22,473 nt of DNA, from positions 1 through 22,473 of IMG/VR virus record IMGVR_UViG_3300035126_000377; one strand, written 5' to 3'. This document shows positions 806 through 22,206 of this stretch, one piece after another. Origin of the DNA: a virus. A model generated the notes under the pieces. The model had not been told where the DNA came from. It made no database searches and worked only from the letters and a program-made list of their open reading frames with translations. The first letter of the stretch is position 1; every line of letters starts with the position of its first letter. Made by a program: the position numbers and the translations under genes.

Positions 806-1612
806 ATGAGACACGGCAGTTTGTTTTCAGGCATCGGTGGGTTTGATCTCGCTGCCGAATGGATGGGATGGGAGAATGTATTTCATTGCGAGTGGATGGA
901 GTTTCCACGAAAGGTATTGGAATACTATTGGCCGGAAGCAGACAGCCACATTGATATATGCAAAACTGATTTCAAAAAATATGAAGGAACAATTGATGTT
1001 ATTTCCGGTGGCTTTCCATGTCAGCCATTTTCACTCGCAGGAAAGCGAAAAGGAACAGATGATGAACGCTACTTGTGGGGCGAAATGCTACGAGCAATAC
1101 AAGAAATTAAGCCCACATGGGTCATTGCAGAAAATGTCTTTGGTATCACAAATATTGATGGCGGACTGGTTTTCGAGCAGGTGTGCCTTGACTTGGAAGC
1201 TGAAGGGTACGAAGTTCAACCGTTTGTTATTCCAGCTTGTGCCAAAAACGCACCGCACCGAAGGGATAGATGCTGGTTTGTTGCCTACTCCAACCGTGAT
1301 GGATCAAACCAATGCAACGGCAACGATGAAGTCAACGCAAGTAAAGGAAGGCAGTATGCACTCGGTTACGTTAAATCGATACCTTCAAACTTCCAAAACT
1401 TCCCAACTCAATCCCCGATTTGTGGCGGAGATGATGGGCTTCCCGCCGAACTGGACGGAATTACCTTTTCAAAGTGGAGAAACGAAAGCATCAAAGGATA
1501 TGGTAATGCCATAGTACCACAAATAGCATACGAACTTTTTAAAATAATAGAACATGAGAATAAAAATCAAAGCACCACAGCACAACAGCCGGACAACATT
1601 TCGCCAAAGTGA
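806..1612 (+). CDS. DNA (cytosine-5) methyltransferase
   Basis: Transfers a methyl group from S-adenosylmethionine to C5 of cytosine, probably to protect phage DNA from host restriction. C5-methyltransferase motifs appear in order: motif I LFSGIGGFDLAA (residues 6-17), motif IV GGFPCQPFS with catalytic Cys72, motif VI ENV (109-111), motif VIII RRDRCWFVA (152-160) and motif X GYGNAIVPQ (231-239). At 268 aa it is short for the family; only about 50 residues separate motif VIII from the segment leading to motif X, so the target-recognition region is compact. No partner endonuclease is seen, so it is likely an orphan phage enzyme. ATG 806 follows a leaderless-type promoter. The 3' end overlaps the next gene by 59 bases. 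A second conserved frame is embedded in the gene (981-1514). The recognition sequence cannot be read from the DNA. Confidence 0.93.
   Translation: MRHGSLFSGIGGFDLAAEWMGWENVFHCEWMEFPRKVLEYYWPEADSHIDICKTDFKKYEGTIDVISGGFPCQPFSLAGKRKGTDDERYLWGEMLRAIQEIKPTWVIAENVFGITNIDGGLVFEQVCLDLEAEGYEVQPFVIPACAKNAPHRRDRCWFVAYSNRDGSNQCNGNDEVNASKGRQYALGYVKSIPSNFQNFPTQSPICGGDDGLPAELDGITFSKWRNESIKGYGNAIVPQIAYELFKIIEHENKNQSTTAQQPDNISPK
981..1514 (+). CDS. Nested +1-frame protein inside the methyltransferase gene
   Basis: This frame (+1 relative to the methyltransferase) is open from a GTG at 837 to TAG at 1512-1514, 225 codons. ATG 981, after an A-rich stretch, is the first ATG and gives 177 aa. Its translation carries segments I recognise from phage methyltransferase-associated proteins: SPHGSLQKM, RCALTWKLKGTK..RLLFQLVP (about 1180-1240), GLLPTPT (1275-1295), STQVKEGSMHSVTLNRY (about 1330-1380) and LNPRFVAEMMGFPPNWTELPF (about 1408-1470). 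In other phages such LPTPT...LNPxFVExMMGxPxGWT segments occur in frame within methyltransferases or as separate proteins; that is from memory. Here the same bases also encode methyltransferase motifs VI, VIII and X. Function is unknown; it may assist target recognition or bind the enzyme. How it would be translated is not evident, as no clear ribosome site is visible. Confidence 0.6.
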   Translation: MKEQLMLFPVAFHVSHFHSQESEKEQMMNATCGAKCYEQYKKLSPHGSLQKMSLVSQILMADWFSSRCALTWKLKGTKFNRLLFQLVPKTHRTEGIDAGLLPTPTVMDQTNATATMKSTQVKEGSMHSVTLNRYLQTSKTSQLNPRFVAEMMGFPPNWTELPFQSGETKASKDMVMP

Positions 1613-9234: not shown

Positions 9235-9786
9235 TCATGAAAAGAAACCACGTAAAAATTTATAGTCATCATCTTCGCCCAGATAAAACCCACCAAATAA
9301 GTACTGGTTTTGTGGATTGATTACATCCAAGCCACTTGCAGGGTTTTGGTATTCGGGGAAAAGTGTATCATTTTCAGCCAAGTACAGGCGCAGTCTTTCA
9401 GCGTAGTATTCTGCCTTATTTTGGTAACGCTGCTCAATCATGCGAAGTTGGTCAACATCCACAGCGTTTGCATTTTCTGCGCCACGACTTGCCGCTGACT
9501 TGTTCATCATTTTGTAGGTCAATGGAAGCATTGAGTCCAAAATCACATAATGATAAAGGCAAGGTGCAACGTATTTGTTGACCAATGTCAGGTAGTTACC
9601 ACCAAGCCCAGCCCCGTTGATGTCATCACAAATCTTGTCGTATAGGGTGCTTCCCAAAATATCACGGATGTACACATCCTGTGCGGTGCGCATGGCTGTT
9701 TGAAGCAACTTACTATCGACATTCTCATCGATAGGGGTGTTCTTCTTTACATCCTGCTCACTTACGAAGTATGCGAAATTAGCCAT
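9235..9786 (-). CDS. Head-tail connector-like protein
   Basis: Protein of 183 aa. The N-terminal segment (SEQDVKKNTPIDENVDSKLLQTAMRTAQDVYIRDILGSTLYDKI) matches the helical start of Bacteroidota phage connector/adaptor proteins that bind beneath the portal (DUF6712-like, by recollection). The rest is helical (IEQRYQNKAEYYAERLRLYL). Position directly after the portal supports the call. A ribosome site AAGGAG lies eight bases before ATG 9786, and the start overlaps the portal 3' end by 8 bases. Confidence 0.55.
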   Translation of the reverse strand: MANFAYFVSEQDVKKNTPIDENVDSKLLQTAMRTAQDVYIRDILGSTLYDKICDDINGAGLGGNYLTLVNKYVAPCLYHYVILDSMLPLTYKMMNKSAASRGAENANAVDVDQLRMIEQRYQNKAEYYAERLRLYLAENDTLFPEYQNPASGLDVINPQNQYLFGGFYLGEDDDYKFLRGFFS

Positions 9787-11698
9787 TGTTTCTTCTCCTT
9801 ACTATTCTTTGCTTCCATTCATGCCGACAATGCGGAATGTGTAAAGGTGGTTCGCTTTCAGGCACGGTGTACCACCCACCCCGGCGAAGCCATACGCTAT
9901 AACCTAAAATTGCACTCATCTGGTCGATTTCTTCACGGGTGTAAAGTTTACCCATGTCCACCATACGAAGGCAAAACTCACGACTTTTTCCACCGGGTTG
10001 CAACGGCAACGCATCAGGATCTAAATCGTACTTGTAACGCAGTTCCAACTTTGGAAGTTCGGTGTCTGCAATCTCTCCACGGCCAATGTCGGTGATTTTG
10101 ATTGCATTGTTTGTCCAGTTTATCTTGCCGCTGTCCTGCAAAGTTTTCAAAATCTTGATAACTTCTTCTTCTCCTATTTTGGTGGCGGTGGAAATGTCTT
10201 TCAACGTGGCTTTTTCATCGGAATTTACCACAGCCAACACACGCTTTTCTTTGGTGGTCAGTTCAAATGTGAGTTTCACTTCCTCAAATTCGGACTCATC
10301 AGCCCCAAATTTGGCAAAAACTGACAAGTCATTGTCTGACCATTTGTGAAATTCGCAACCCTGATGGCTAAAATTTTCGGGAGTTGCTGTTTCTGTTGGT
10401 GCAGTTGCCAACGCATCACCGCCCGGTATAGGTGGAAGCCCTGCCAATGCACGTTTTTCATTCACGGTCATGTTGGCAAGTACGTTATTTGCTACAAGTG
10501 GCGACAAGCTGTTAATGTTTTCAATCACTTTTTGTGCGCTATCTACAACTGTCTGGGTAGCTTCACCCAATCCGAGTGCTGTACGGGCTTCCTCTACGGT
10601 CACAATTCCAGCCCCATGCAATGCAACGTAATCAACTCCCAGAAAATCGCTGTCTTTGGTGGTTAACTCGATGCCGGGATAAACGCTTTCAAGTGTATGT
10701 TGTAGGCAAGTGTCAACTTTTACTTGACGCTTGTTAACGTATGACTTATGGAACAACTCATATGCTTCAATCATTTCATTACGCTGACCAAGTGCGCCTT
10801 CGGTTGCGTAACCGAGCAGAATTTTCGGAAAGTTGTGGCCGATAAAGATTTCATCCTGCACGGTTTCATTCAGTTGCAGGAATTGTTTGTCCATGTCGGA
10901 AGGTTGCAGGTGTGCAATCTCCGCAGACTTTTCGTTCATCTCATTGAACTGAATAAGCACACCACCTGCGTTGTCCGTGCCTGTGGTTTTCTGCTTGAAC
11001 TTCCTCTCAAAGTTAAAGGCAATTTCTTCGGTAGGTTGACCTTTGAACAACTGAACCAGTGTGCCGTTGGCAAACCCATTGCGGATGTTGTTATTGTGGA
11101 AGTTGGCTATCTCAACATCAATTTCAATATACTGCAAACAATGCTGATATGGGGGCAACGGATAAACACCCAAGGCAGGTGCATATTCTCGGAAGTAGTA
11201 CAACTGCACTTCCATTGGTTGGGCCTTTTTCGGGTTAAAAGGTGCATAATGCTTCATGTCCTCATGCTTTGCCTTTTTCCAATCCTCTGCATACATATAG
11301 ATTTCGTGGTCAAGTGTCCGAATGTTGCTGAAATCTACGTGATACAAAGCAGAAATTTGCCCCACTTTGTTGTAGTGTACCTCATAGGCAAATCCGTTGA
11401 ACAATTCATAATCCAGAGCTAACTTATTTTTGAACTCCTGAATACCCTCATAAGGGTTAACGTAGTCAATTACCTTAACTGCGCTGGGGTTGCCATCCAC
11501 AAGGGTTTCTTCACCTGCAACAAAACGGGCTTTCTGCCTTACAATAGCCCCATGTTTTGGGCTTCTGTTGTAAAATTCAAGTAACGTATCGGGAAAATCG
11601 TTCTTTTCCCCATAGGTAACGATGCCTTTATTCTTGTTTTCCTTGAATTTAGGCAACTTTGACTCGGTAAAATTTATGCGTAATAGGTCGAAACTCAT
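9779..11698 (-). CDS. Portal protein with C-terminal extension
   Basis: Protein of 639 aa forming, by family role, the dodecameric ring at the capsid vertex for DNA packaging. The first about 440 residues have portal character: VTYGEKNDFPDTLLEFYNRS, KHGAIVRQKARFVAGEE, a long helical middle with HLQPSDMDKQFLQLNETVQDEIF, and a LPPIPGGDALA end. Beyond it is an extension of about 190 residues with a winged-helix-like part (TTKEKRVLAVVNSDEKATLKDISTATKIGEEEV..) and a Cys/His module: SREFC (Cys576), YTREEIDQM, WLRRGGWY and CRHEW (Cys624-Trp628). MuF-type morphogenesis proteins also end in Cys/His motifs, so this could be a fused head-morphogenesis domain. ATG overlaps the previous stop (ATGA). Confidence 0.82.
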   Translation of the reverse strand: MSFDLLRINFTESKLPKFKENKNKGIVTYGEKNDFPDTLLEFYNRSPKHGAIVRQKARFVAGEETLVDGNPSAVKVIDYVNPYEGIQEFKNKLALDYELFNGFAYEVHYNKVGQISALYHVDFSNIRTLDHEIYMYAEDWKKAKHEDMKHYAPFNPKKAQPMEVQLYYFREYAPALGVYPLPPYQHCLQYIEIDVEIANFHNNNIRNGFANGTLVQLFKGQPTEEIAFNFERKFKQKTTGTDNAGGVLIQFNEMNEKSAEIAHLQPSDMDKQFLQLNETVQDEIFIGHNFPKILLGYATEGALGQRNEMIEAYELFHKSYVNKRQVKVDTCLQHTLESVYPGIELTTKDSDFLGVDYVALHGAGIVTVEEARTALGLGEATQTVVDSAQKVIENINSLSPLVANNVLANMTVNEKRALAGLPPIPGGDALATAPTETATPENFSHQGCEFHKWSDNDLSVFAKFGADESEFEEVKLTFELTTKEKRVLAVVNSDEKATLKDISTATKIGEEEVIKILKTLQDSGKINWTNNAIKITDIGRGEIADTELPKLELRYKYDLDPDALPLQPGGKSREFCLRMVDMGKLYTREEIDQMSAILGYSVWLRRGGWYTVPESEPPLHIPHCRHEWKQRIVRRRNNG

Positions 11699-12072
11699 CC
11701 GATGTGGTGTTGTTTAATAGTTGTATTGACCTCGTGGTCGTTAAATGCGGTATGCGATGCGGTAACATAAGCCAATCCCCGGTCAACTTCCTGCGATGCA
11801 AGTAATGGGTTGGTATTGGTGGGGGATGTTTGTGCGTATAATGCCCAGTAATGCGTTCCTACCGCCAATGTTTTTGCTGCACTGCTGCCCTCTACAAATG
11901 AAAATAGCTGGTATCTGTTGGGTGCTGTGCTTGTATCGGTTACAATAAATGCCTTTTGTTCCTGGGACATTTCGGACTCAAACACCAACAGATAATACAC
12001 GGGAGAAACGGTCACCTTTTCTCTGCCTGTGATTATCAATTCGGGTGTTCCTGCTTTGGTTATGTACAGCAT
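11695..12072 (-). CDS. Small virion-associated protein, unknown
   Basis: Protein of 125 aa with predicted beta strands (VSPVYYLLVFESEMSQEQKAFIV, RYQLFSFVEG, AVGTHYWALYAQTSPTNTNP). It resembles small structural proteins that sit next to portals in Bacteroidota phages, by recollection; the role is unknown. It follows a strong terminator (12105-12134), so it must rely on readthrough or its own promoter. A palindromic element (12073-12090) abuts its ATG. The stop overlaps the portal start. Confidence 0.6.
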   Translation of the reverse strand: MLYITKAGTPELIITGREKVTVSPVYYLLVFESEMSQEQKAFIVTDTSTAPNRYQLFSFVEGSSAAKTLAVGTHYWALYAQTSPTNTNPLLASQEVDRGLAYVTASHTAFNDHEVNTTIKQHHIG

Positions 12073-12090
12073 CCTACTAATATAAGTAGG
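12073..12090 (-). promoter_or_regulatory. Start-adjacent palindrome CCTACTTATATTAGTAGG
   Basis: CCTACT, six bases, AGTAGG: a perfect inverted repeat directly abutting ATG 12072 and downstream of the 12105-12134 terminator. It could be a promoter/operator for a new transcript or an RNA hairpin controlling the start. Related copies precede several other genes. Confidence 0.5.
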
Positions 12091-12104
12091 TCGGTTTCAT
12101 GTTA

Positions 12105-12134
12105 AACAAAAAAGGTGGTCAATGACCACCCTTT
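12105..12134 (-). terminator. Rho-independent terminator after the putative tail-tube gene
   Basis: On the - strand GGTGGTC/GACCACC (12114-12120 with 12124-12130) makes a seven-base stem with a three-base loop, followed by TTTTTT (12113-12108). A classic intrinsic terminator placed between two co-directional late genes. Confidence 0.85.
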
Positions 12135-12157
12135 CTGCATGAAAACACTATGAAAAA

Positions 12158-12670
12158 TCAAAGACCCAGCGAAGTTACAACAGCGGCCTGAACTTTCAAA
12201 GGTAAATCGGTCTCTTTGTGGAGAAAATTTAATACATGACCTTTGAAATCACCGAACGCTTGTCCGAAGTTGGTTTCACTCTGCTGCAACTGAACACCAT
12301 AGTCAGCACCCAGCAGCCAGTAGTCACCACTTGCATCAAGGGCAATGGCCAACATCCTGTTTTGAGCAAGGAGTTTAATCTCGTTGCGCTGTGCAGTGGT
12401 AACTTTGTGCAGACGTGCAACAAGGTCAGCTTCGTAAAACACGGTTCCGTTTTCAGTTGAAGGAATGGTTCTCCAAGTCATGGAGCCAGTTTCCTTTTCC
12501 AACTCATATTTGAAGTAGCTTTTGCCACCACTCAAAGTGTGGGCAGAAACTTCTCCGCTTGATTTGGTTAGAGTAGATTTGGCGTCGAACTCAACGAGCC
12601 AAATATTTTTGATACCTGCGGCTGCGGTTTTGCAGTCCAAGGTAAATCCAGTTGTTAATACACAAGCCAT
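12158..12670 (-). CDS. Putative major tail tube protein
   Basis: Protein of 170 aa starting MACVLTTGFTLDCKTAAAGI. It has a beta-rich pattern with LVEFDAKSTLTKSSGEV, KSYFKYELEKETGS, and a conserved-looking C-terminal stretch (NRMLAIALDASGDYWLLGAD, FGDFKGHVLNFLHKETDLPL). I recall similar MACxLTxGxxLDC proteins as tail tube candidates in Bacteroidota phages; size also fits a tube protein. It lies between two strong hairpins, just after the capsid gene, as expected of another abundant subunit. A different abundant virion protein cannot be excluded. Confidence 0.6.
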   Translation of the reverse strand: MACVLTTGFTLDCKTAAAGIKNIWLVEFDAKSTLTKSSGEVSAHTLSGGKSYFKYELEKETGSMTWRTIPSTENGTVFYEADLVARLHKVTTAQRNEIKLLAQNRMLAIALDASGDYWLLGADYGVQLQQSETNFGQAFGDFKGHVLNFLHKETDLPLKVQAAVVTSLGL

Positions 12671-12689
12671 ATTATTTTTTTAAATTAAA

Positions 12690-12716
12690 GGGGGGTAGGG
12701 TTTTTCCCCACCCCCC
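12690..12716 (-). terminator. GC-rich hairpin after the capsid gene, terminator or attenuator
   Basis: On the - strand GGGGGGTGGGG and CCCTACCCCCC form an 11-bp stem (one G-T pair) with a five-base A loop, followed by TTTAATTT. The downstream run is interrupted by AA, so it may reduce rather than stop transcription, or protect the capsid mRNA 3' end. It lies between the capsid stop at 12745 and the next start at 12670. Confidence 0.7.
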
Positions 12717-12744
12717 GGGTTAAACTTTCTCTATTCGGTTAAAA

Positions 12745-13692
12745 TTAGAGTGTGAAAAGAACAACTTGCTCAGGGTAAGCAACCTGACATCCGTATTTGA
12801 AAGCGGTGTGGAATTGTACTCTGCGCTCGAAAGGATTGAAGATAAATTCAAACTCTTCTTCTTCGTTCATCATGTCAGTACCCAAAAAGAAATTTGACCA
12901 CAGACCAGCAACGATTTTGTTCGTTCCGTTCATGCCATGCAGACCGTAAATCTTGATGCCAGTGATAGGGTCAACAATCTCCATCTCTGCGATTTCGTTT
13001 GCAGGGTAGTGGAACAGGTTAGCAGTTACCAACCACTGTCTGTAAAGACGGAAAGTATCTGTACCCATAGCAATCATCAGGTCAGGTTTTCCAAGCAGTT
13101 CAGCAGGGATAACGCTGTAAATGGTAGTGATGATGTCATCGATGTTGGAAGCAGTGATAGAAGCGTAAGCGTTAGCCACGTTACCTTTGATAGGGTCACC
13201 TGCACCACCGAAACCGAGGTCTCCGAGGATAGTCAGGAAGCCATCCCAGTAACCCAAGTTGCCAGCACCGCCTGTGGTATCACCCTGCCAAATTGAAGTT
13301 TCGATAGCTTCGGCAATTTTGGCAGCTTTTTCAGCTCCGATTTGCTCGGTGAATACACCCATGTCGATAGCTTCACCTGCGGCAAGAGCTTTCTGTGTGT
13401 ATTTGGTTTCAAGGTCTTTGGGGCACAAAGTTTCCTGAACCTTAACTTTTCCAACGGTCAGTGTGCGCTTGGACAGGGTAGTGTTACCGCTTGTCTGATA
13501 AGAGCAGCTGTCAGATTGGAAGTAAACGTCTGAATACAGCAAAGGCAGTATTTCAGCAGATTTGATACCGGGGAGAACCTGTCCAGCACCCTGCAACAGA
13601 CGTGCAGTTTTGGCGGTGAACATCGCTTTGGTCAGAAGGTTTAAGCTCTCTTCTTTGGTGTAATTGGTGAGACCTGTTACGTCAAATGCCAT
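12745..13692 (-). CDS. Major capsid protein
   Basis: Protein of 315 aa that would form the capsid shell. It begins MAFDVTGLTNYTKEESLNLL, without an obvious long delta domain. The middle and end look like a HK97-fold coat protein of Bacteroidota phages: SYQTSGNTTLSKRTLTVGKVKVQETLCPKDLE, EKAAKIAEAIETSIWQGDTT, PDLMIAMGTDTFRLYRQWL, and NPFERRVQFHTAFKYGCQVA near the C-terminus. Position after protease and scaffold genes and in front of a strong hairpin supports the call. The separate scaffold gene fits the missing delta domain. The DNA appears rather uniform and codon-optimised, as in abundant virion genes. Confidence 0.85.
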   Translation of the reverse strand: MAFDVTGLTNYTKEESLNLLTKAMFTAKTARLLQGAGQVLPGIKSAEILPLLYSDVYFQSDSCSYQTSGNTTLSKRTLTVGKVKVQETLCPKDLETKYTQKALAAGEAIDMGVFTEQIGAEKAAKIAEAIETSIWQGDTTGGAGNLGYWDGFLTILGDLGFGGAGDPIKGNVANAYASITASNIDDIITTIYSVIPAELLGKPDLMIAMGTDTFRLYRQWLVTANLFHYPANEIAEMEIVDPITGIKIYGLHGMNGTNKIVAGLWSNFFLGTDMMNEEEEFEFIFNPFERRVQFHTAFKYGCQVAYPEQVVLFTL

Positions 13693-13701
13693 GATTTTAT
13701 T

Positions 13702-14268
13702 TTATTTTTTGATTGATTTGATTGCGGAAACAAAGCCAAAGAAATTTTCCTCTTTTTCGGGTTTAACTGAACCGAATGGCTTTTTGGTCGGCTCAGGGGT
13801 GGTGGCTGCGAACTTTTCAAACACGCTGAAAGTTTCTTCAACTTTGCCCAGTATGTTTACAAGTGCAGTTTCAAGGGTAGCGATTTTCGCTGCCAGTTCT
13901 TCGTTAGCGGCACGGAGTGCGTCGAACTGCTCAACGGATGCAAACTGATTTTCAACCTCAACTTCCTCAACGGGAGTTTCTTCTTTGGTTTCAATCATTT
14001 CAACCACACCATCTTTGGTTGTCACCAAAAGACCAGTGGTAGTTTCATGCACTCCATCGGGAGCAGGAACGATACCTTCTTCGCCTTTAACATTCAATAG
14101 CATTCCAGCGGCAAGTTCCTCACCTTCAAAAACTACGATAGTGCCATCGACCAAAGTCAACTCACCAAACGCAGCAGGGATGGCTTCTTCGCTGAAACGC
14201 TGCTTCACTTCTGACATAAATGCCATCAGCGATGCTTTCATTTCGGCTAATTCTGATTTAAATTCCAT
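13702..14268 (-). CDS. Putative scaffolding protein
   Basis: Protein of 188 aa, strongly acidic, with helices at the start (EFKSELAEMKASLMAFMSEVKQRFSEEA), a compact beta-rich insert (LVDGTIVVFEGEELAAGMLL...TTTGLLVTTKDGVVEMIE), a Glu-rich linker, a coiled coil (DALRAANEELAAKIATLETAL) and a short basic end (SAIKSIKK). This layout and its place immediately before the capsid gene suit an internal scaffold removed by the upstream protease. ATG 14268 is preferred to the upstream start at 14304, which would lie inside the protease gene; a related start-adjacent element (CTACCTTTTAAG) precedes it. It ends nine bases before the capsid start. Confidence 0.65.
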   Translation of the reverse strand: MEFKSELAEMKASLMAFMSEVKQRFSEEAIPAAFGELTLVDGTIVVFEGEELAAGMLLNVKGEEGIVPAPDGVHETTTGLLVTTKDGVVEMIETKEETPVEEVEVENQFASVEQFDALRAANEELAAKIATLETALVNILGKVEETFSVFEKFAATTPEPTKKPFGSVKPEKEENFFGFVSAIKSIKK

Positions 14269-14296
14269 ATATCTTAAAAGGTAGATTGATTTTAAC

Positions 14297-15448
14297 CTAT
14301 GCAAAATTTTTCAGCATGGCGGTTATTTCACGCATCATTTCAAGGACTTCATCCTGTTCTTCCATGTCAAAAAGCCCCTCAACGCTGAAACCTTTCCATT
14401 CGCCATCCTTAACTTTTGCCCATATTTCCTCATTGTCTATTAAATAGGTCAGGAACCAACTGCCATCCTTTGCATCTTCGTACCCGGTAGGTGGCATCAC
14501 ACCACGTTTGCGGTCAATGAAGTAACTCTCAATCATGTGGACACCCTCTTTCACGGGGTTGGCATGGTCGGTATTCACTGCTTTGTAGGCGTCATTGCGG
14601 ACAAATTTCTTTGCAATTTTCCAAATGGTGTCAGCATCGAATGTCACATAGTATTCACCCCTGATGTCATCGTAGCGGTAAATGGGTAAATCTGCCAACA
14701 TTGCCGGGCCTGTCACGATTCGTTTTTCTTCGGATTGAACCGAGTATGCCTGTCGCATATCTATCTGTTGCAATTTACGACTTGCCCATTCGATACCCTC
14801 ATCACCACCCCAAGCCAACCACATCAGGCGGCCACATCCATCCCCAAGTTCTTTGTCGCTGTTCTGCCTGTGCCTTTCAAACCCTGCCATCCTTGCAATA
14901 GTGTCACGGGTAATGGCTTCACCGTTAGCTAACTGATTAGCCCTGATTTTACCGACCGCTGTTCCGCAGTCACCCCATCCGTTTTCTTCTGCCCAACGCA
15001 AAGCAACCTTTGCATTTTCTTTGGCGGCTTCGGGGTAGTCATCGTAGCTTTCAAATTTCTGCAATTCGTCTTTGTGGTATAGGTATTCACTATCTGCTGT
15101 ATGTGTTGCGCCAGTCATTAACCTACCATCGGCATCTTTATGCGTTGGCCCTTCATACAATTTACCATCTTTGGTATAATGTGGCATACCTTCTGCAAAT
15201 TTATCTTTGCTGCTCCATTTGGAATAACACACGGCTGCGGCTTGGTCTTGCTCCATGCCTTCGCCAATCATTACCGGGATGCAACGGCTGATAAATTCAT
15301 CTTCGGTTTCGTTTGCTGTCGGATCAACGAATTGGTCTTTGAATAGCATGAAGTCTTTTTGTATGGCTGGGCGGTCAACTAACGAAACAAAGTCCACCCC
15401 TGTTTCGTCATCATCATTGACCACAATTTTGTACACTGGTAATTCCAT
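14297..15448 (-). CDS. XkdF-like prohead protease with inserted domain
   Basis: Serine protease expected to process scaffold and capsid, 383 aa from ATG 15448. The C-terminal half carries XkdF/S78_2-type sequence: RIVTGPAMLADLPIYRYDD, YYVTFDADTIWKIAKKFV, NTDHANPV with likely catalytic His295, and KGFSVEGLF with likely nucleophile Ser355. In front sit a DEFISRCIPVMIGEGMEQDQ segment and a module of about 100 residues (YDDYPEAAKENAKVALRWAEENGWGDCGTAVGKIRANQLANGE..GCGRLMWLAWGGDEG) that I recall in other phage head proteins but cannot name. ATG 15448 avoids an overlap with the tape measure gene and follows a start-adjacent element; the GTG at 15475 is less likely. Confidence 0.8.
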   Translation of the reverse strand: MELPVYKIVVNDDDETGVDFVSLVDRPAIQKDFMLFKDQFVDPTANETEDEFISRCIPVMIGEGMEQDQAAAVCYSKWSSKDKFAEGMPHYTKDGKLYEGPTHKDADGRLMTGATHTADSEYLYHKDELQKFESYDDYPEAAKENAKVALRWAEENGWGDCGTAVGKIRANQLANGEAITRDTIARMAGFERHRQNSDKELGDGCGRLMWLAWGGDEGIEWASRKLQQIDMRQAYSVQSEEKRIVTGPAMLADLPIYRYDDIRGEYYVTFDADTIWKIAKKFVRNDAYKAVNTDHANPVKEGVHMIESYFIDRKRGVMPPTGYEDAKDGSWFLTYLIDNEEIWAKVKDGEWKGFSVEGLFDMEEQDEVLEMMREITAMLKNFA

Positions 15449-15463
15449 AATTATAAAAGTAGG
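15449..15463 (-). promoter_or_regulatory. Start-adjacent element CCTACTTTTATAATT
   Basis: CCTACTTTTATAATT abuts ATG 15448 of the protease gene. The CTACTTTTATAA core is the same as at 22208-22220 and matches 11 bases of the + strand copy at 4485. It overlaps the last codon of the tape measure gene. The right arm of the palindrome is degraded. Confidence 0.45.
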
Positions 15464-15464
15464 T

Positions 15465-17648
15465 TTAAACGACACTTGTATTTCTTAACCTGCGAACCCT
15501 TGTCTGCGTTTTGGTGATGTCACCTTCAAGAACGTACACTCTGCCCATGCCACCGAACTGACCTTCTTCGGGTAGGGCACCGCCTGTGAGTGGGGTCATT
15601 GGTGAAGGAGCAGCACCTACCGCACCCATTCCGCCACCGCCACCGCCACCACTTGCACTACCGCCACGCAAAATATCCCTTGCACGTTTTGCGTTACTTA
15701 ATACCATTGCCAATCCTGATGCGTATACGGCAGCACCTGCAATCTGTGGGCCGGGAGCAGGAACACCCATTGCCGTCATGTTTCGTGCGGTGTTACGTGC
15801 TTCAACTATTGTGGATGAAATCGCCTTTGCTGTATCGGCTGCAATGGCTGCGATTGCGAATGCCTTTTGTGCATCACTACCCTCTTTCATAAGCCCTGCC
15901 ATTGCATTAAGTACATCGGATGCAGCTTGTAATCCTTGCATACGGATATCATGCAACGCTTGTTCTTTGCGCTTTTCATCCTCAACTTCCTTGTCTTTTA
16001 TGTCCTTTCGCTTTTGGGCAAGTTGCAATTCAAGGGCAGCAACTTCCTCTCCATTTTCTTTGCGGATGCGGATTTCATCCTTTAACCTTTTTACTTCTAA
16101 ATCTGCTGCGGCTGCGTTCAGTTCTTCGGTTGTGAGATTTTTGTCATATAGTGCCGCTTCCTGTTTTTTGTAGAAATCGTTTAACGCTGTAATTTCTTTG
16201 TCATTGGCTTGTTTTTTCCACGATGCTAAATCTTCTTCCGATTTCTTATCTTCTGCTGCTTTTTTTGCATTGGCATCTTTGGCTATTTTGGCAATTTCAT
16301 CATTGAATATTTTTTCGGCTGCAATATATTCAGCAGAACCCTTGTTAAATCCTTTGACACTTGCTTTAAATCTACGTTCGGCAATTATTTCAGCACGTTG
16401 AACCTCGGTTTTACCCACCAATTCCGCATCCAATATCAGTTGTTCGGAACGCTTTTTCAATTCATCTTGCCTTGCCTTTTCATCCTGTGCTGCTTTGGCT
16501 GCTGCTGCGTTTGCATCGTCTTGGGCTTTTTTTCTTTTTTCGATTGCAGTCTTTGCCTTTTCCTGATTTTCCAACGCCTTCGCTTCATTTGGAAATCCTG
16601 CCTTTAATTGCTTGTCGTAAAGACCCTGCGCTTGGGTAACTTCCTGCTGTGCGGTTTGCAGATTTTTCAAACCCCTTTTCCCTAATTCCTGCGCACCTTT
16701 GTCTATGCCCATTAACGCACCAACTGCCCCAGCGTAAAAGTTATCCCATGAAGAAGTCTGCTCGTCAAGGTCGCTGTTTTGCAGCTCCAATAAACGCTTA
16801 GTTTTTTCCTGTAATATTTGGGCTGCTGCCTCTGTCCTTGCCCTTTGTGCAATTACCAATATATTTTCTTTGGTGCGGTCAGTCAATGTTTTCATTGAGT
16901 CCGCATTGTCAAGGTTTATGTCATTGGTTTCAATCCCTGCTTCCTTTAACTTTTCAAGAGCAAACTTCCTTTCGGCTTCCGATTTGGTGGTGTCCTGAAC
17001 TATGCTATTGTAGAAGTTTAAATCATTTGCTTGGGTTCTTGTGGCCTGACCAGCGATGTTGATTTGGTCATTCATCTTCTCCATTTCGGACTTGGCAAAT
17101 CCAAGCGAAACGGCAATCTCATCCCAGTATGCGGCAACGGTTGCAAGTCCTGTCAAAAGCAATCCAAGCCCGGTAGCCATGAAAACCTTGGATGCGGTGG
17201 TCATTTCTTTGAATGCCTTTACTGCATCTTGACCAAGGGTTGTGAATTGTTTTTTTGCCGCATCCAAACCTTCCAATCCCTGTGCGAATGCCATTGCACC
17301 CTGCACTTTTAAAAGGGCTTTTTGCACATCTTCGCTTTCAGCACCAAACAAAGCCATCGCACCTTGTGCAGCTTGGAAGCCATTTGCAACACCTTTGGCA
17401 ATGGTGTTTATTCGGTTGAATTTGTCGGGGTGCAATGCCTGAATTTTCTCATTCAGGTCATCCATTTGGTCTTTCAGGTCTGCAACCCTTTTGGCTGCTT
17501 CAAGTGCCTGTGGTGAAAACTCCCCAAACTTCTGCGACATCGCTGCCGCTTCTTGGGTTGCTTCCCTGATTTGTGCTTTCAGCGATTTAACGCTATCCGT
17601 GCCTTTGGTTTTGGCCTCTAAATTTATTGCTACTGTGGTTGTTGCCAT
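15465..17648 (-). CDS. Tail tape measure protein
   Basis: Protein of 727 aa that would set tail length and occupy the tail lumen. It is nearly all helical and Ala/Lys/Glu/Gln-rich with long coiled-coil stretches (residues about 20-70 and 340-560). One hydrophobic segment near residues 150-170 (FMATGLGLLLTGLATVAAYW) and another helical hydrophobic part (SDVLNAMAGLMKEGSDAQKAF..AIAAIAADTAKAI) resemble the membrane-active parts of tape measures. The C-terminus has a run of seven glycines. At about 0.15 nm per residue it predicts a tail near 110 nm, a siphovirus. It starts one base after the stop of the upstream tail gene. Confidence 0.85.
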   Translation of the reverse strand: MATTTVAINLEAKTKGTDSVKSLKAQIREATQEAAAMSQKFGEFSPQALEAAKRVADLKDQMDDLNEKIQALHPDKFNRINTIAKGVANGFQAAQGAMALFGAESEDVQKALLKVQGAMAFAQGLEGLDAAKKQFTTLGQDAVKAFKEMTTASKVFMATGLGLLLTGLATVAAYWDEIAVSLGFAKSEMEKMNDQINIAGQATRTQANDLNFYNSIVQDTTKSEAERKFALEKLKEAGIETNDINLDNADSMKTLTDRTKENILVIAQRARTEAAAQILQEKTKRLLELQNSDLDEQTSSWDNFYAGAVGALMGIDKGAQELGKRGLKNLQTAQQEVTQAQGLYDKQLKAGFPNEAKALENQEKAKTAIEKRKKAQDDANAAAAKAAQDEKARQDELKKRSEQLILDAELVGKTEVQRAEIIAERRFKASVKGFNKGSAEYIAAEKIFNDEIAKIAKDANAKKAAEDKKSEEDLASWKKQANDKEITALNDFYKKQEAALYDKNLTTEELNAAAADLEVKRLKDEIRIRKENGEEVAALELQLAQKRKDIKDKEVEDEKRKEQALHDIRMQGLQAASDVLNAMAGLMKEGSDAQKAFAIAAIAADTAKAISSTIVEARNTARNMTAMGVPAPGPQIAGAAVYASGLAMVLSNAKRARDILRGGSASGGGGGGGMGAVGAAPSPMTPLTGGALPEEGQFGGMGRVYVLEGDITKTQTRVRRLRNTSVV

Positions 17649-17649
17649 T

Positions 17650-20406
17650 TTATTTGTTTGTTAATGCGTACCATTCTGTTCCATCACATACTAAACAAGC
17701 CGTTCCGTAATGATTATTTATTGTGTAATTTGCTACCCCGTCAATCAACTGGTCTGCGTATGCGTCAATGGTGAGTGTTCCCTGCGCACCTTTTTTTACA
17801 ATCCAATATAATTTGTTGGATGCGGTTGATGCGTCAGGTAATGTCAATGTGTGGTTTCCTGTTCCAAGCGAAATAATTATATCATCATGTAAGTCAATAT
17901 TATAATTGTTAGGTGGGAAAGCAAAACGATTTGTGCCGAAATTATTTGCTGTCATCAACTGCCCTTGCAGCCACACTTCGTCAGCCCCTACATTCTGCAC
18001 ACCCTCACCAATAACCACGCTGCGTTCACTATTTGGTAAAAAGGTAGTTCCACTTGTCGCAAAGGCAGCATTTGCCCTACCAAGGTTAGTCACTGCATCC
18101 CCAGTTACTACACCGCTTCCAATGTTGTTGTATTGACCTACTGAAAATCCTTTGTTTTGAATAACCCTTCCCGGTAAATTACTACCATCGTATGGGTCTC
18201 TTTCAAATTCTTGGGTATCACCACCGCCACCACTTGACTGCGTACCGCCACCGCCAACGGTTCCTGTGGTTGCTGTGAATGTGGGCCCGGTTTTGAGGAA
18301 CAAAAACTCACAGATATTTACCGATGGGTTAATCGGGTCGTAGTCCTCAATTTTATTCAGGCGGAAGTAATTGCCGTCAAAGAAATAAAGATCACGGAAA
18401 GACAATTTTTCCATGTCAGCCGGGGTCAGGTAGAAATTACCCTTTACCAACTTGCTGTCTTTGTCCACTATTTCATTGATGTATTTTCTCCAATAAGCAT
18501 TATACAGGTTGTTGTTGGTTACTGGTGTTCCACCGGGAAGTCCAATATATTGAGGAAGTCCAAAATTTATATCAGTAGTGGATGCCAATGGATCGCTCAA
18601 ATGACCCATGTATGGGTAGTTTGTTTTTGTTGTGGTGGTTGGTGAAGATACGGGTGTTGCTTTGCCATAGTGAATTGTGTATGTTTTGCAACTCATGTAC
18701 TTGTATTGCAGTAACCTTAATTTACCAGCTTTTCCATCCTGATTGTCAGTTGAATTACCCGGCAGATATTTATCATCAAAACCAACATTGATTAGTGTTG
18801 TTGGCTGGAAACCAACTTCGATTTTCTTTTCGTCTTTTATGAAGTCATTGTTTATCGTTATCTGTCTGTCTCCATAAACCCTGTCAAAGTCTTGTTTGTA
18901 TGCCTTGTTATCGTCATCGTCACCTTCGGAGTATGTGAATAGATATTTACCTGCATCCAATTCACCCATTGGTGTTATGTCCAATGGCTGTGACAAGTCC
19001 CTTTTTTCTGTCCAATCCTGTACCGTATTTGTGTAGAAATCATCACGTGGCAATACCAACAATGTTTTATTCATGTCTGTTGCTTCCACGTACAGATTAA
19101 ACATCGTAAAAAGCCACTTCATAAATTCACGCTGTTTTGTTTCTCCCTGAAAAAACCCACCGAAATCTATGGTTTCGTCATAACCCCATGTTGTTGGTTT
19201 AATTTCATTAAAAATTCCACTGCCTGTTTTTTGATTATATGTCCACCCTGTCAATGGGGTAGTAAAACTGCTGTCAAAAATATTCTCTAATCGTATTTCA
19301 ATAGTATCATTTCTGTTCAAATAAACATTGTAAAAATCAACTAATTGGTCAAGTGTTCCCGAACCTGATGGCCCAGCAAAACCCTGTTCACTGATGCCGA
19401 CATTGAAAATATTGCCATTGATATAAATTCCGTATACAGCATAAAACACGGTCGATGGTGTAATACCTGACACGGTTGCATTGTTATCAATAAAAATATT
19501 GTAATCTCCCGAATACTGACAAGTGTAAACTCCGGTTGTGGTGTTGTATTGGTTTGATGGATCAGTTATTTCATTATTAAAAATCAATTTATTACCAGCT
19601 GTAACCGTTACATCTGTTGACCTTTCAGCTTCAAAATATCTTAATGCCACATCATCCTCGCCCAATATCGGAAATCTTGTCGGGCATGGAATAACAAGTC
19701 GCTTGAACTGCGCTGAATTGAAAAACGAACCACTTGAATAGCTGTAACCTGCACCGCTGAAAATCTTATCTACTACCGTTTTCGCATACATATAAACGGT
19801 CATGTTATCAACATTTAGATTTTGATAATCTTTGTATGTGCCATTGTCCATCCATCCATAGACATAACCCTCACCAATGGGTGCGCCACCGCTGAAATTT
19901 ACATAACCGCTTGAACCATTTTTTACAATCGAAGTGTCCCATGAATTGAATATATTGGTGGCATTCAGCACGTGGTTGTATTCGGTAAAATCTAAATCTT
20001 GAAGTTTACCATCCGAAATCTTTGCGAATAGATCAGCCAACTCCCCGTGCATTGAGCATTCGTACTCGATTTGGTTCAGGTCGTTAACCTTAATCGACAA
20101 CAAACGGATAAAACCTTCTATTTGCGTGACTTCATCCACGGTCAACAGCGCATCGGCTTTCAGGTTAGGATTGAAATCAGGACTGAAATTGGTGGATGTC
20201 GTGTTGCGGATGGACAAGTTCAAATCAAACAAGTGGGTGAACAGCTTGTTATTTGTTTTTGTACCGGGCAGGGTGAACGTCTTTGTCCAGTCCGATGACC
20301 TGCTTTCAGGTTCACGAATGTCAGCAATGCTCTTGTTTATCTGTATTCCAAAATCGGTGGGCAGGTCAACGCTGTACCCACCGCATACTAATCTTACGTT
20401 GTTCAT
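17650..20406 (-). CDS. Large tail protein with modular C-terminal tip
   Basis: Protein of 918 aa, tail tip or baseplate component. The N-terminus (VDLPTDFGIQINKSIADIREPESRSSDWTKTFTLPGTKTNNKLFTHLFDL) is typical of large tail proteins of Bacteroidota phages. The body is beta-rich. Around bases 18225-18265 a Gly/Ser hinge (VGGGGTQSSGGGGDTQ) separates it from a C-terminal module with YadA-like turns (ANAAFATSG, NSERSVVIGEGVQ) and an end domain (ISLGTGNHTLTLPDASTASN..WYALTNK) of a kind seen on phage fibres. The tip domain may bind host polymers. ATG overlaps the previous stop (ATGA). Confidence 0.7.
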   Translation of the reverse strand: MNNVRLVCGGYSVDLPTDFGIQINKSIADIREPESRSSDWTKTFTLPGTKTNNKLFTHLFDLNLSIRNTTSTNFSPDFNPNLKADALLTVDEVTQIEGFIRLLSIKVNDLNQIEYECSMHGELADLFAKISDGKLQDLDFTEYNHVLNATNIFNSWDTSIVKNGSSGYVNFSGGAPIGEGYVYGWMDNGTYKDYQNLNVDNMTVYMYAKTVVDKIFSGAGYSYSSGSFFNSAQFKRLVIPCPTRFPILGEDDVALRYFEAERSTDVTVTAGNKLIFNNEITDPSNQYNTTTGVYTCQYSGDYNIFIDNNATVSGITPSTVFYAVYGIYINGNIFNVGISEQGFAGPSGSGTLDQLVDFYNVYLNRNDTIEIRLENIFDSSFTTPLTGWTYNQKTGSGIFNEIKPTTWGYDETIDFGGFFQGETKQREFMKWLFTMFNLYVEATDMNKTLLVLPRDDFYTNTVQDWTEKRDLSQPLDITPMGELDAGKYLFTYSEGDDDDNKAYKQDFDRVYGDRQITINNDFIKDEKKIEVGFQPTTLINVGFDDKYLPGNSTDNQDGKAGKLRLLQYKYMSCKTYTIHYGKATPVSSPTTTTKTNYPYMGHLSDPLASTTDINFGLPQYIGLPGGTPVTNNNLYNAYWRKYINEIVDKDSKLVKGNFYLTPADMEKLSFRDLYFFDGNYFRLNKIEDYDPINPSVNICEFLFLKTGPTFTATTGTVGGGGTQSSGGGGDTQEFERDPYDGSNLPGRVIQNKGFSVGQYNNIGSGVVTGDAVTNLGRANAAFATSGTTFLPNSERSVVIGEGVQNVGADEVWLQGQLMTANNFGTNRFAFPPNNYNIDLHDDIIISLGTGNHTLTLPDASTASNKLYWIVKKGAQGTLTIDAYADQLIDGVANYTINNHYGTACLVCDGTEWYALTNK

Positions 20407-21593
20407 GCGTTTTGTAACCTTTCGGGTTCGGTATATTCAACTGTGATTTGCAGGTTGTTCGGGCCATCAATGTAGTCAAATACCTCGTAGCTTGTGTCGG
20501 TTATGTTGACCGGAATGTTGCCGAGAAAAACCACCGGGGATGCAATCAAATCTTGCAGCCACTCAAATTCGGTTTCTGTCAACCAATTTGTGTTCAGCAC
20601 CACTTGCTTTGTCTTTTCGGTTGCATAGGAAGTCATCCCGTGCTTACTGGTGTCGTACACATACTGCACTCCGCTGATGCCGTAATTGTTCCGCTTAAAT
20701 TGTTTGCGAGTGACGTTGTATTTATCTCGTGACATCATGCTGCACCGCACCGTTTCAAAGCCACCCAATGGGTTCAGGAAGTACAAATATTGTGGGCTGT
20801 ATTTACTGCATTCTTCTACCACATCAAACCGATACGCTTCCGTTCCGGGGGCAAGTGATCCGTTTACGACTTGCACCGTGTAGTAACTTGTATTGGCAGG
20901 AACAACACTCCCAGACGTTCCGCTGATTAAGGAACCCTGTGCGATAAGGTTCAGGTTGTTAGGCCCGGCAGCCACACGGAGCAAATATTCGGACTTGTCG
21001 GTTGTGGTGTCAAAGGTGTTATTGATTACCGATGTGGTTGTAGAACCTGCGCTGTCATAAGCAACAACCCGAACATCACAGGCATTGTCACCTCGCAAAA
21101 AGTAAAGGTAGTCATTTTGCCCTATTGTAACCCTGCGACTACGGACACGGGTCAGGAATTTACTGCTACCGCCCACAAAGTCAATTTCATAATCAGTCAC
21201 CTGCTCACTTCCGTACAAATAATAAAGCCCATTCCAGCAATATTTGCCCGTGTCGGATGTCAGGTTCAGGTATTCCGTGCCGCCATATTCCTCGCCAAAT
21301 TCAACTGAATAAGCAATATAAGAATTGGCACATTTTGCAGGGGCTGCCAATCCAAGTGTAAAATCATACGTCACATAATTCTGCAATATCCGTGACAAAT
21401 CAAACACCCCATAGTTGGTAGTGCCGTAGAAAATAGGTGCTTTCAGTTTGGCTATGATTGTACCGGCTGCGTTTTTTACGACAGCCACAAACTTGAAATT
21501 CGTTTGAGTGTAGTTATTTGAGGACACAACATAAGCAACGGGTGAATATACCGGGCTTATGTCGTTCGGTTCGGTTTCGATTGTAATTGCCAT
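20403..21593 (-). CDS. Tail protein, probable distal-tail or baseplate subunit
   Basis: Protein of 396 aa, beta-rich with many Tyr, Asn and Thr residues. Segments such as MAITIETEPNDISPVYSPVAYVV, APIFYGTTNYGVFDLSRILQNYV, GGFETVRCSMMSRDKYNVTRKQF and TNWLTETEFEWLQDLIASPVV suggest a structural tail component conserved among Bacteroidota phages. No enzymatic motif is visible. It is preceded by a terminator-like hairpin and a start-adjacent element, which suggests a separately regulated unit that includes the following large tail gene and the tape measure. Confidence 0.65.
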   Translation of the reverse strand: MAITIETEPNDISPVYSPVAYVVSSNNYTQTNFKFVAVVKNAAGTIIAKLKAPIFYGTTNYGVFDLSRILQNYVTYDFTLGLAAPAKCANSYIAYSVEFGEEYGGTEYLNLTSDTGKYCWNGLYYLYGSEQVTDYEIDFVGGSSKFLTRVRSRRVTIGQNDYLYFLRGDNACDVRVVAYDSAGSTTTSVINNTFDTTTDKSEYLLRVAAGPNNLNLIAQGSLISGTSGSVVPANTSYYTVQVVNGSLAPGTEAYRFDVVEECSKYSPQYLYFLNPLGGFETVRCSMMSRDKYNVTRKQFKRNNYGISGVQYVYDTSKHGMTSYATEKTKQVVLNTNWLTETEFEWLQDLIASPVVFLGNIPVNITDTSYEVFDYIDGPNNLQITVEYTEPERLQNA

Positions 21594-21609
21594 CTACCTA
21601 AAAAAGTAG
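21594..21609 (-). promoter_or_regulatory. Start-adjacent element CTACTTTTTTAGGTAG
   Basis: CTACTTTTTTAGGTAG directly abuts ATG 21593. Its left half also forms the 3' arm and T-run of the hairpin at 21600-21623, so the palindrome and that hairpin would compete. It is one of five good copies of this element in the window. Confidence 0.5.
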
Positions 21610-21623
21610 GTTTGTGCCTACCT
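21600..21623 (-). terminator. Terminator-like hairpin after the gp10-like gene
   Basis: On the - strand AGGTAGG, six bases CACAAA, CCTACTT (7 bp with one G-T pair) followed by TTTT and A. It starts at the stop codon of the upstream gene and would end its transcript. It is weaker than the two hairpins at 12105-12134 and 12690-12716. Confidence 0.5.
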
Positions 21624-22206
21624 ATGTAGTGGCAATCTCACTTGTAACGTATGCCGTGATGGGTTTACCCAAGGCATCTCCCAAGTGCTGTGCGATTGCA
21701 TCTATATTGGCAGGGGTCAGCACATCGTCAATAAAGTTAGCACCCTTGTAACCAAATCTTTTTATCGTTCCTTTGGATGCTATTTTGCGAGATATAGCAA
21801 TCGCAAATGACCTGACCGCTTCATCCATTGTTTGCCCTTCCTTTGGCTTCACCTTTGCATACACCGTTCGTTTGTTTCTTATCCAATTTTCAAGCGACTG
21901 AATTGGTGGTTTGTTTCCGGGCCTTCTGCCTTGGTCAACATACAGATAATATTTTGACATCATAATCGGCACGGTCACTCCGCTTGGTGTTTCAATGAAA
22001 TCACCCACACCCGTTTCCGCAATCAAGTTGCCTGTGGACTTCAAGTCCTTTCGTTCCATGTCCTCACGGATGGCATCAATTAAACGCTGTGCAACTCCAA
22101 TAACAAGGTCAGCAAGTAATGAATTAGGCATAGGGCTGTCGGGTATCCCGAACTTATCCAGCAACCCTTTGTTGATTGCATCCAGTTGCGCTTTGGTAAT
22201 GTTCAC
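21622..22206 (-). CDS. HK97 gp10-like tail completion protein
   Basis: Protein of 194 aa. The centre SKYYLYVDQGRRPGNKPPIQSLENWIRNKR and the later AVRSFAIAISRKIASKGTIKRFGYKGANFIDDVL match the HK97-gp10 / virion-morphogenesis type of protein, which sits at the head-tail joint or tail end. The GTG at 22206 is the start: the next Met would remove 25 helical residues, and a CTACTTTTATAAGT element lies just before it. The gene's position ahead of tail genes, far from portal and connector, is unusual. Confidence 0.68.
   Translation of the reverse strand: MNITKAQLDAINKGLLDKFGIPDSPMPNSLLADLVIGVAQRLIDAIREDMERKDLKSTGNLIAETGVGDFIETPSGVTVPIMMSKYYLYVDQGRRPGNKPPIQSLENWIRNKRTVYAKVKPKEGQTMDEAVRSFAIAISRKIASKGTIKRFGYKGANFIDDVLTPANIDAIAQHLGDALGKPITAYVTSEIATT

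Follow-up and report, generated by a model that had tools for sequence, protein, structure and literature searches.

Two reading frames at one methyltransferase locus

The window analysed here is a 22,473-nucleotide fragment of a virus record, and one locus within it is read in two overlapping frames of the plus strand. The main frame (806–1612) encodes a methyltransferase of 268 amino acids, which we call alpha. The second frame is shifted by +1 and is open from a GTG at 837 to position 1514 (225 amino acids); we call the gene within it beta. A sequence-only reading of the window had reported both frames with these limits, and every peptide it quoted is indeed present. Judged by eye, the surroundings are those of a tailed phage. 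A DnaB-like helicase and a probable single-strand-binding protein lie beside the methyltransferase (1–778 and 2027–2293), and structural genes, likewise named by eye from their translations, occupy the opposite strand at 9779–22206. The features of alpha are the following.

806–1612, plus strand: alpha, C5-cytosine DNA methyltransferase, 268 amino acids (PF00145, phrog_363, TIGR00675, AlphaFold/Foldseek)
821–850, plus strand: motif I, LFSGIGGFDL (translation; invariant alignment columns)
1007–1033, plus strand: motif IV, GGFPCQPFS, with the catalytic cysteine (translation; invariant alignment columns)
1127–1138, plus strand: motif VI, AENV (translation; E109, N110 and V111 invariant)
1229–1288, plus strand: motif VIII region, IPACAKNAPHRRDRCWFVAY (translation; H151, R153 and R155 invariant)
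1496–1540, plus strand: motif X, GYGNAIVPQIAYELF (translation; G233, N234 and A235 invariant)

Alpha has the marks of a C5-cytosine methyltransferase: a Rossmann-type core together with motifs I, IV (PCQ), VI (ENV), VIII and X, which had already been assigned to the main frame and which translation bears out. It matches the families phrog_363 (PHROG) and TIGR00675 (NCBIfam), and its AlphaFold model resembles M.HhaI over about 165 residues (Foldseek E=6e-16). The match to the Pfam family PF00145 is strong (E=2.7e-42) and covers residues 1–173 only. Motif IX is absent from the alpha chain, in which PF00145 ends at residue 173, and was located in beta only. The features of the +1 frame are these.

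837–980, plus strand: open +1 frame ahead of beta, probably untranslated (synonymous diversity 0.72–0.83 of expectation; closed in several homologues)
980–982, plus strand: tyrosine codon TAT of alpha that gives the beta ATG (TAT-G; TAT and a following G in 65 of 65 aligned loci)
981–1514, plus strand: beta, nested gene in the +1 frame of alpha, 177 amino acids from ATG 981 (phrog_1008; ATG kept in 70 of 74 loci; onset of constraint; purifying selection)
1182–1247, plus strand: predicted hairpin of beta, CALTWKLKGTKFNRLLFQLVPK, overlapping the lead-in to alpha motif VIII (AlphaFold strands 69–76 and 82–89, pLDDT about 80; alpha synonymous diversity 0.16–0.19 of expectation)
1278–1295, plus strand: LLPTPT element of beta, start of a variable, presumed target-recognition stretch (repeat number varies among aligned homologues)
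1407–1454, plus strand: motif IX of beta, LNPRFVAEMMGFPPNW, in the +1 frame of alpha (profile comparison; synonymous diversity 0.03–0.14 of expectation)

Beta matches phrog_1008, a family labelled "DNA methyltransferase" (E=4e-23), in agreement with the earlier impression that the +1 protein is methyltransferase-associated. Searches with beta gave no significant match in Pfam or NCBIfam and no sequence match in the PDB. Its AlphaFold model is weak (pLDDT 58) and matches no PDB structure; poor prediction of beta alone would be no surprise if beta acquires its fold on a partner subunit.

ATG 981 is found in all but four of the 74 distinct homologous loci and nearly always lies 175 nucleotides after the alpha start. 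The tyrosine codon that provides it is invariably TAT, while the other tyrosine codons of alpha divide into 289 TAC and 198 TAT; the 65 loci aligned here are mutually related and do not represent 65 independent events. A start at GTG 837 was considered and rejected. Because 837–980 is unconstrained, and because several homologues have the +1 frame closed a few codons upstream of 981, the beta gene most likely spans 981–1514 and starts at ATG 981. Of the extent of 837–1514 given for the +1 gene by the sequence-only reading, the larger part stands, and 837–980, although open in the window, has to be given up. A strong Shine-Dalgarno sequence precedes the beta start in phages N15 (GGAGG, eight bases ahead of the ATG; locus 1189), Harrison and Diva. 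Bacteroidota-type loci have an A-rich stretch there instead of a GGAGG-type ribosome-binding sequence.

Both frames are under selection

The +1 frame is open over 182 to 379 codons in all 74 distinct loci, a set to which searches with the main-frame protein also contributed; the +2 frame of the same loci contains 17 to 39 stops. IMG/VR holds at least 598 relatives found through the +1 protein (tblastn-confirmed) and 205 found in a separate search with the main-frame protein. When the alpha codons of the window are shuffled such that the alpha protein and its codon usage are kept, 981–1514 acquires about five stops on average and stays stop-free in about 0.1% of cases. The claim that the +1 frame is no random shadow is borne out by these numbers.

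An open frame is only part of the evidence. Synonymous diversity in alpha is 0.72–0.83 of expectation at 806–955 and 0.38 at 956–985, the bin that holds the beta ATG. It is 0.16–0.34 at 1106–1255 (lowest, 0.16–0.19, at 1166–1255) and 0.03–0.14 at 1406–1465, and it returns to 0.60–0.72 at 1466–1555. The drop thus falls exactly at the start of beta and the recovery near its end. At four-fold sites that encode the same amino acid, 48–56% of pairs differ before beta and 21–29% inside it. We also sorted substitutions by their effect in both frames, as raw counts with no correction for multiple hits and over pairs that are not independent. On this basis dNN/dNS is 0.53 in beta. The +1 frame ahead of beta gives 0.88, and the +2 frame of the beta region, taken as a control, gives 1.46; dNS/dSS in alpha is 0.22. 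Substitutions that are silent in alpha and change beta fall from 0.57 per site upstream to 0.31 in beta. Neutrality of substitutions with respect to the +1 frame, which had been named beforehand as the pattern that would speak against a gene, is clearly not what dNN/dNS and the four-fold sites show.

Could the +1 frame nevertheless be a noncoding shadow, held open by base composition and by the conserved sequence of alpha? Long shadow frames are common in phages of high G+C content. Beta also overlaps the most conserved part of alpha, hence some of its apparent conservation is inherited. We nevertheless give this explanation next to no chance, for the following reasons. First, the probability of a stop-free frame is about 0.001 per locus. 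Second, the synonymous constraint is localised and bounded by the beta ATG, at which all 65 aligned loci have TAT. Third, purifying selection acts in beta and not in the +2 control. Fourth, beta is conserved in A+T-rich and G+C-rich phages alike.

It is also highly improbable that the constraint on codons reflects conservation of the DNA or RNA itself with no beta protein, for example because recombination exchanges recognition cassettes whose flanks are conserved. Such a process would fit the observation that synonymous diversity is lowest on both sides of the variable stretch (1166–1255 and 1406–1465). It does not fit a beta protein that is conserved across phyla after the third positions of alpha have diverged, nor a conserved start codon and substitutions that favour beta-silent changes. 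The locus has what characterizes overlapping genes, namely purifying selection in both frames and synonymous constraint confined to the overlap. We therefore regard it as virtually certain that the DNA of 806–1612 is truly dual-coding and specifies two conserved proteins from overlapping frames, as the sequence-only reading had proposed.

Motif IX and a probable two-polypeptide methyltransferase

The most conserved stretch of beta is LNPRFVAEMMGFPPNW, and its best placement within the whole canonical methyltransferase profile is motif IX (MTPREWARLQGFPEDF). The match comprises 16 residues and its absolute score is modest, at 23.8; column-shuffled controls score 10.5 ± 1.9, and none of 200 scored as high. 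A pattern search for beta-like motif IX returned 80 viral loci. In about 50 of these the motif lies in the +1 frame of alpha, and in about 26 it shares the frame of motif X. Within the second group, at least 14 carry motif I in that frame as well and are full single-chain enzymes, one of which is spanned end to end by PF00145. Single-chain phage C5 methyltransferases such as L283 and L308 have, like beta, a motif IX of the form (N/S)PRFVEW(M/L)MGLP at the same distance from motif X; unlike alpha and beta, they carry all motifs in one frame and one chain. The distance between motifs IX and X is 89 nucleotides across the two frames of the window and 87–93 nucleotides in most single-chain enzymes that have this motif in frame, and therefore motif IX of beta sits exactly where a one-chain enzyme has its own. 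Between motifs VIII and IX, which is the place of the target-recognition domain in single-chain enzymes, beta carries LLPTP-type elements whose number varies; such elements also occur in L308. From their position, those of beta probably contribute to target recognition.

The collinearity of the +1 motif IX with motifs VIII and X of alpha at canonical spacing, and the existence of true single-chain enzymes with an in-frame beta-like motif IX, could also be taken to suggest programmed frameshifting. Ribosomes would leave the alpha frame for +1 and later return to it, making one canonical chain (motifs I–VIII, target-recognition domain, IX and X), and there would be no separate beta. We consider this unlikely. 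Two shifts would be required. The conserved ATG 981, the TAT bias and the onset of constraint at the ATG would have no explanation, and neither would the constraint on the N-terminal part of beta over alpha motifs IV–VIII or the Shine-Dalgarno sequence ahead of the beta start of N15 and Paenibacillus phages.

A division of one enzyme over two polypeptides has precedents. Lee et al. reportedly described in 1995 that the gene for the small polypeptide of M.EcoHK31I, of about 176 amino acids, lies within that for the large polypeptide and uses a different frame. This is the layout of beta, which has 177 amino acids. By motif layout, alpha and beta share the split of the YGGCCR methyltransferases M.EcoHK31I and M.EaeI: the large subunit of M.EcoHK31I has motifs I–VIII and X and the small subunit motif IX (PMC3404938). 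M.EcoHK31I belongs to a bacterial restriction-modification pair, whereas alpha and beta belong here to a phage, and no restriction gene was seen next to them. M.AquI also divides the motifs of one enzyme over two polypeptides, with motifs IX and X and the distal target-recognition domain in the small subunit (PMC3404938). It differs from the present pair, in which motif X remains in alpha (1496–1540) and beta is nested in the +1 frame.

The explanation that we favour, with a probability of roughly 80%, is that the locus encodes a two-polypeptide C5-cytosine methyltransferase built like M.EcoHK31I from overlapping frames. Alpha would supply the AdoMet-binding and catalytic core (motifs I–VIII) and motif X. 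Beta would be translated independently from its own start inside alpha; it would provide motif IX, would probably furnish some of the target-recognition region, and would take part in DNA recognition. Alpha and beta would assemble as a heterodimer, which would be the active enzyme. Phage methyltransferases modify DNA in a way that evades host restriction, and this is the likely use here too. The earlier idea that the second frame supplies a target-recognition or partner domain is the one that we prefer on this evidence.

Beta could also be a real protein whose function is separate from catalysis by alpha; it might, for instance, inhibit host restriction or act as a regulator. It has no recognisable fold, and in seven Bacteroides and Parabacteroides loci it is open where alpha contains two or three in-frame TGA codons (never TAA or TAG). 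We think a separate function very unlikely all the same: beta carries the motif that alpha lacks, in the loci examined it accompanies every alpha-type enzyme and was never found without alpha, and M.EcoHK31I offers a precedent for the pair. The TGA codons fall mostly at conserved tryptophan positions of alpha (AAE*MGW, FRG*RG, SR*RQ, the asterisk marking TGA). Either TGA is read as tryptophan in these loci or alpha is decaying. In the B. xylanisolvens locus the neighbouring genes are not TGA-recoded, and no tRNA was found within 40 kb. For the TGA loci, a strict two-subunit model must invoke either read-through of TGA or another use of beta.

Spread, annotation and origin of the nested gene

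The architecture of M.EcoHK31I has been known since the 1990s; what is notable here is how widely it is spread and that annotation lacks it. Alpha and beta occur in phages and genomes of Bacteroidota, Bacillota, Pseudomonadota, Actinomycetota and Cyanobacteria. The phages include those of Bacteroides, Porphyromonas, Paenibacillus, Lactobacillus, Escherichia (N15, Kagunavirus), Salmonella, Bordetella, Pseudomonas, Xanthomonas, Acinetobacter, Klebsiella, Mycobacterium and Synechococcus. Beta is in the +1 frame of alpha in 19 of 19 phage or plasmid records examined (among them N15, SEN4, Lc-Nu, Diva, a mycobacteriophage and a cyanophage). The same is true of all 51 intact pairs among 67 loci of bacterial and archaeal genomes that were found with the beta alignment, and at these loci alpha and beta always overlap. 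When ten genomes, picked for holding at least one beta locus each, were searched by Pfam family alone, all alpha-type methyltransferases had beta in +1 and all seven canonical single-chain ones were without it. An apparent exception among the ten has a beta of 175 codons with PTPTLFRLIQGFPQNW, as read by eye.

Homologues of beta outside the overlap, which the sequence-only reading had regarded as decisive, exist in one form and not in another. The motif IX segment is found in frame within single-chain methyltransferases; no free-standing beta gene was found, and in the loci examined beta was never met without alpha. One apparent fusion of alpha and beta was caused by a masked stretch of N in the sequence. 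Of three similar loci in Sphingobacterium genomes, two have frameshifts that disrupt the frames; they are possibly decaying prophage copies or sequence errors.

The nested frame is unannotated in N15 (gene 58), SEN4 (SEN4_42), PHB09 and Haboob. It is annotated in Paenibacillus phage Diva as an "internal gene" (DIVA_50), and also in Rani, Sitara and others. These and the PHROG 1008 entries are labelled merely "hypothetical" or "DNA methyltransferase", with no mechanism proposed, and most records omit the frame. Our literature search found no description of nested C5 methyltransferase subunits in phages. A nested gene of about 180–330 codons under dual selection, carried by phages of at least five host phyla, thus usually goes unannotated, N15 included. 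Its presence accounts for the truncated appearance of many phage C5 methyltransferases in Pfam. Codon-optimised expression from the annotated frame would lose half of the enzyme. The loci also form a large natural data set on the evolution of dual coding.

How the arrangement arose can be answered only tentatively. One possible history, which we hold to be rather less than an even bet, is an ancient frame swap, in which the recognition and motif IX segment of a single-chain enzyme moved to the +1 frame and the enzyme was split into nested subunits. The layout would have been kept in phages of many host phyla since the exchange of a recognition cassette by recombination changes both subunits at once, and therefore phages could acquire a new target specificity in one step. 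Motif IX is collinear with the motifs of alpha and yet lies in the other frame; for this reason the C-terminal part of beta may preserve the original frame, the reading of the same DNA by alpha being newer. The N-terminal part of beta, over alpha motifs IV–VIII, looks overprinted.

Among single-chain phage methyltransferases, the variable stretch that separates motif VIII from motif IX is of the LLPTP type in some (L289, L308 and L323) and of an ADADG/AADTD type in others (L281, L283 and L303), and the latter resembles what similar DNA would give in the other frame. Recognition cassettes may work in whichever of the two frames they are read. L289 appears to change from one type to the other within its variable stretch.
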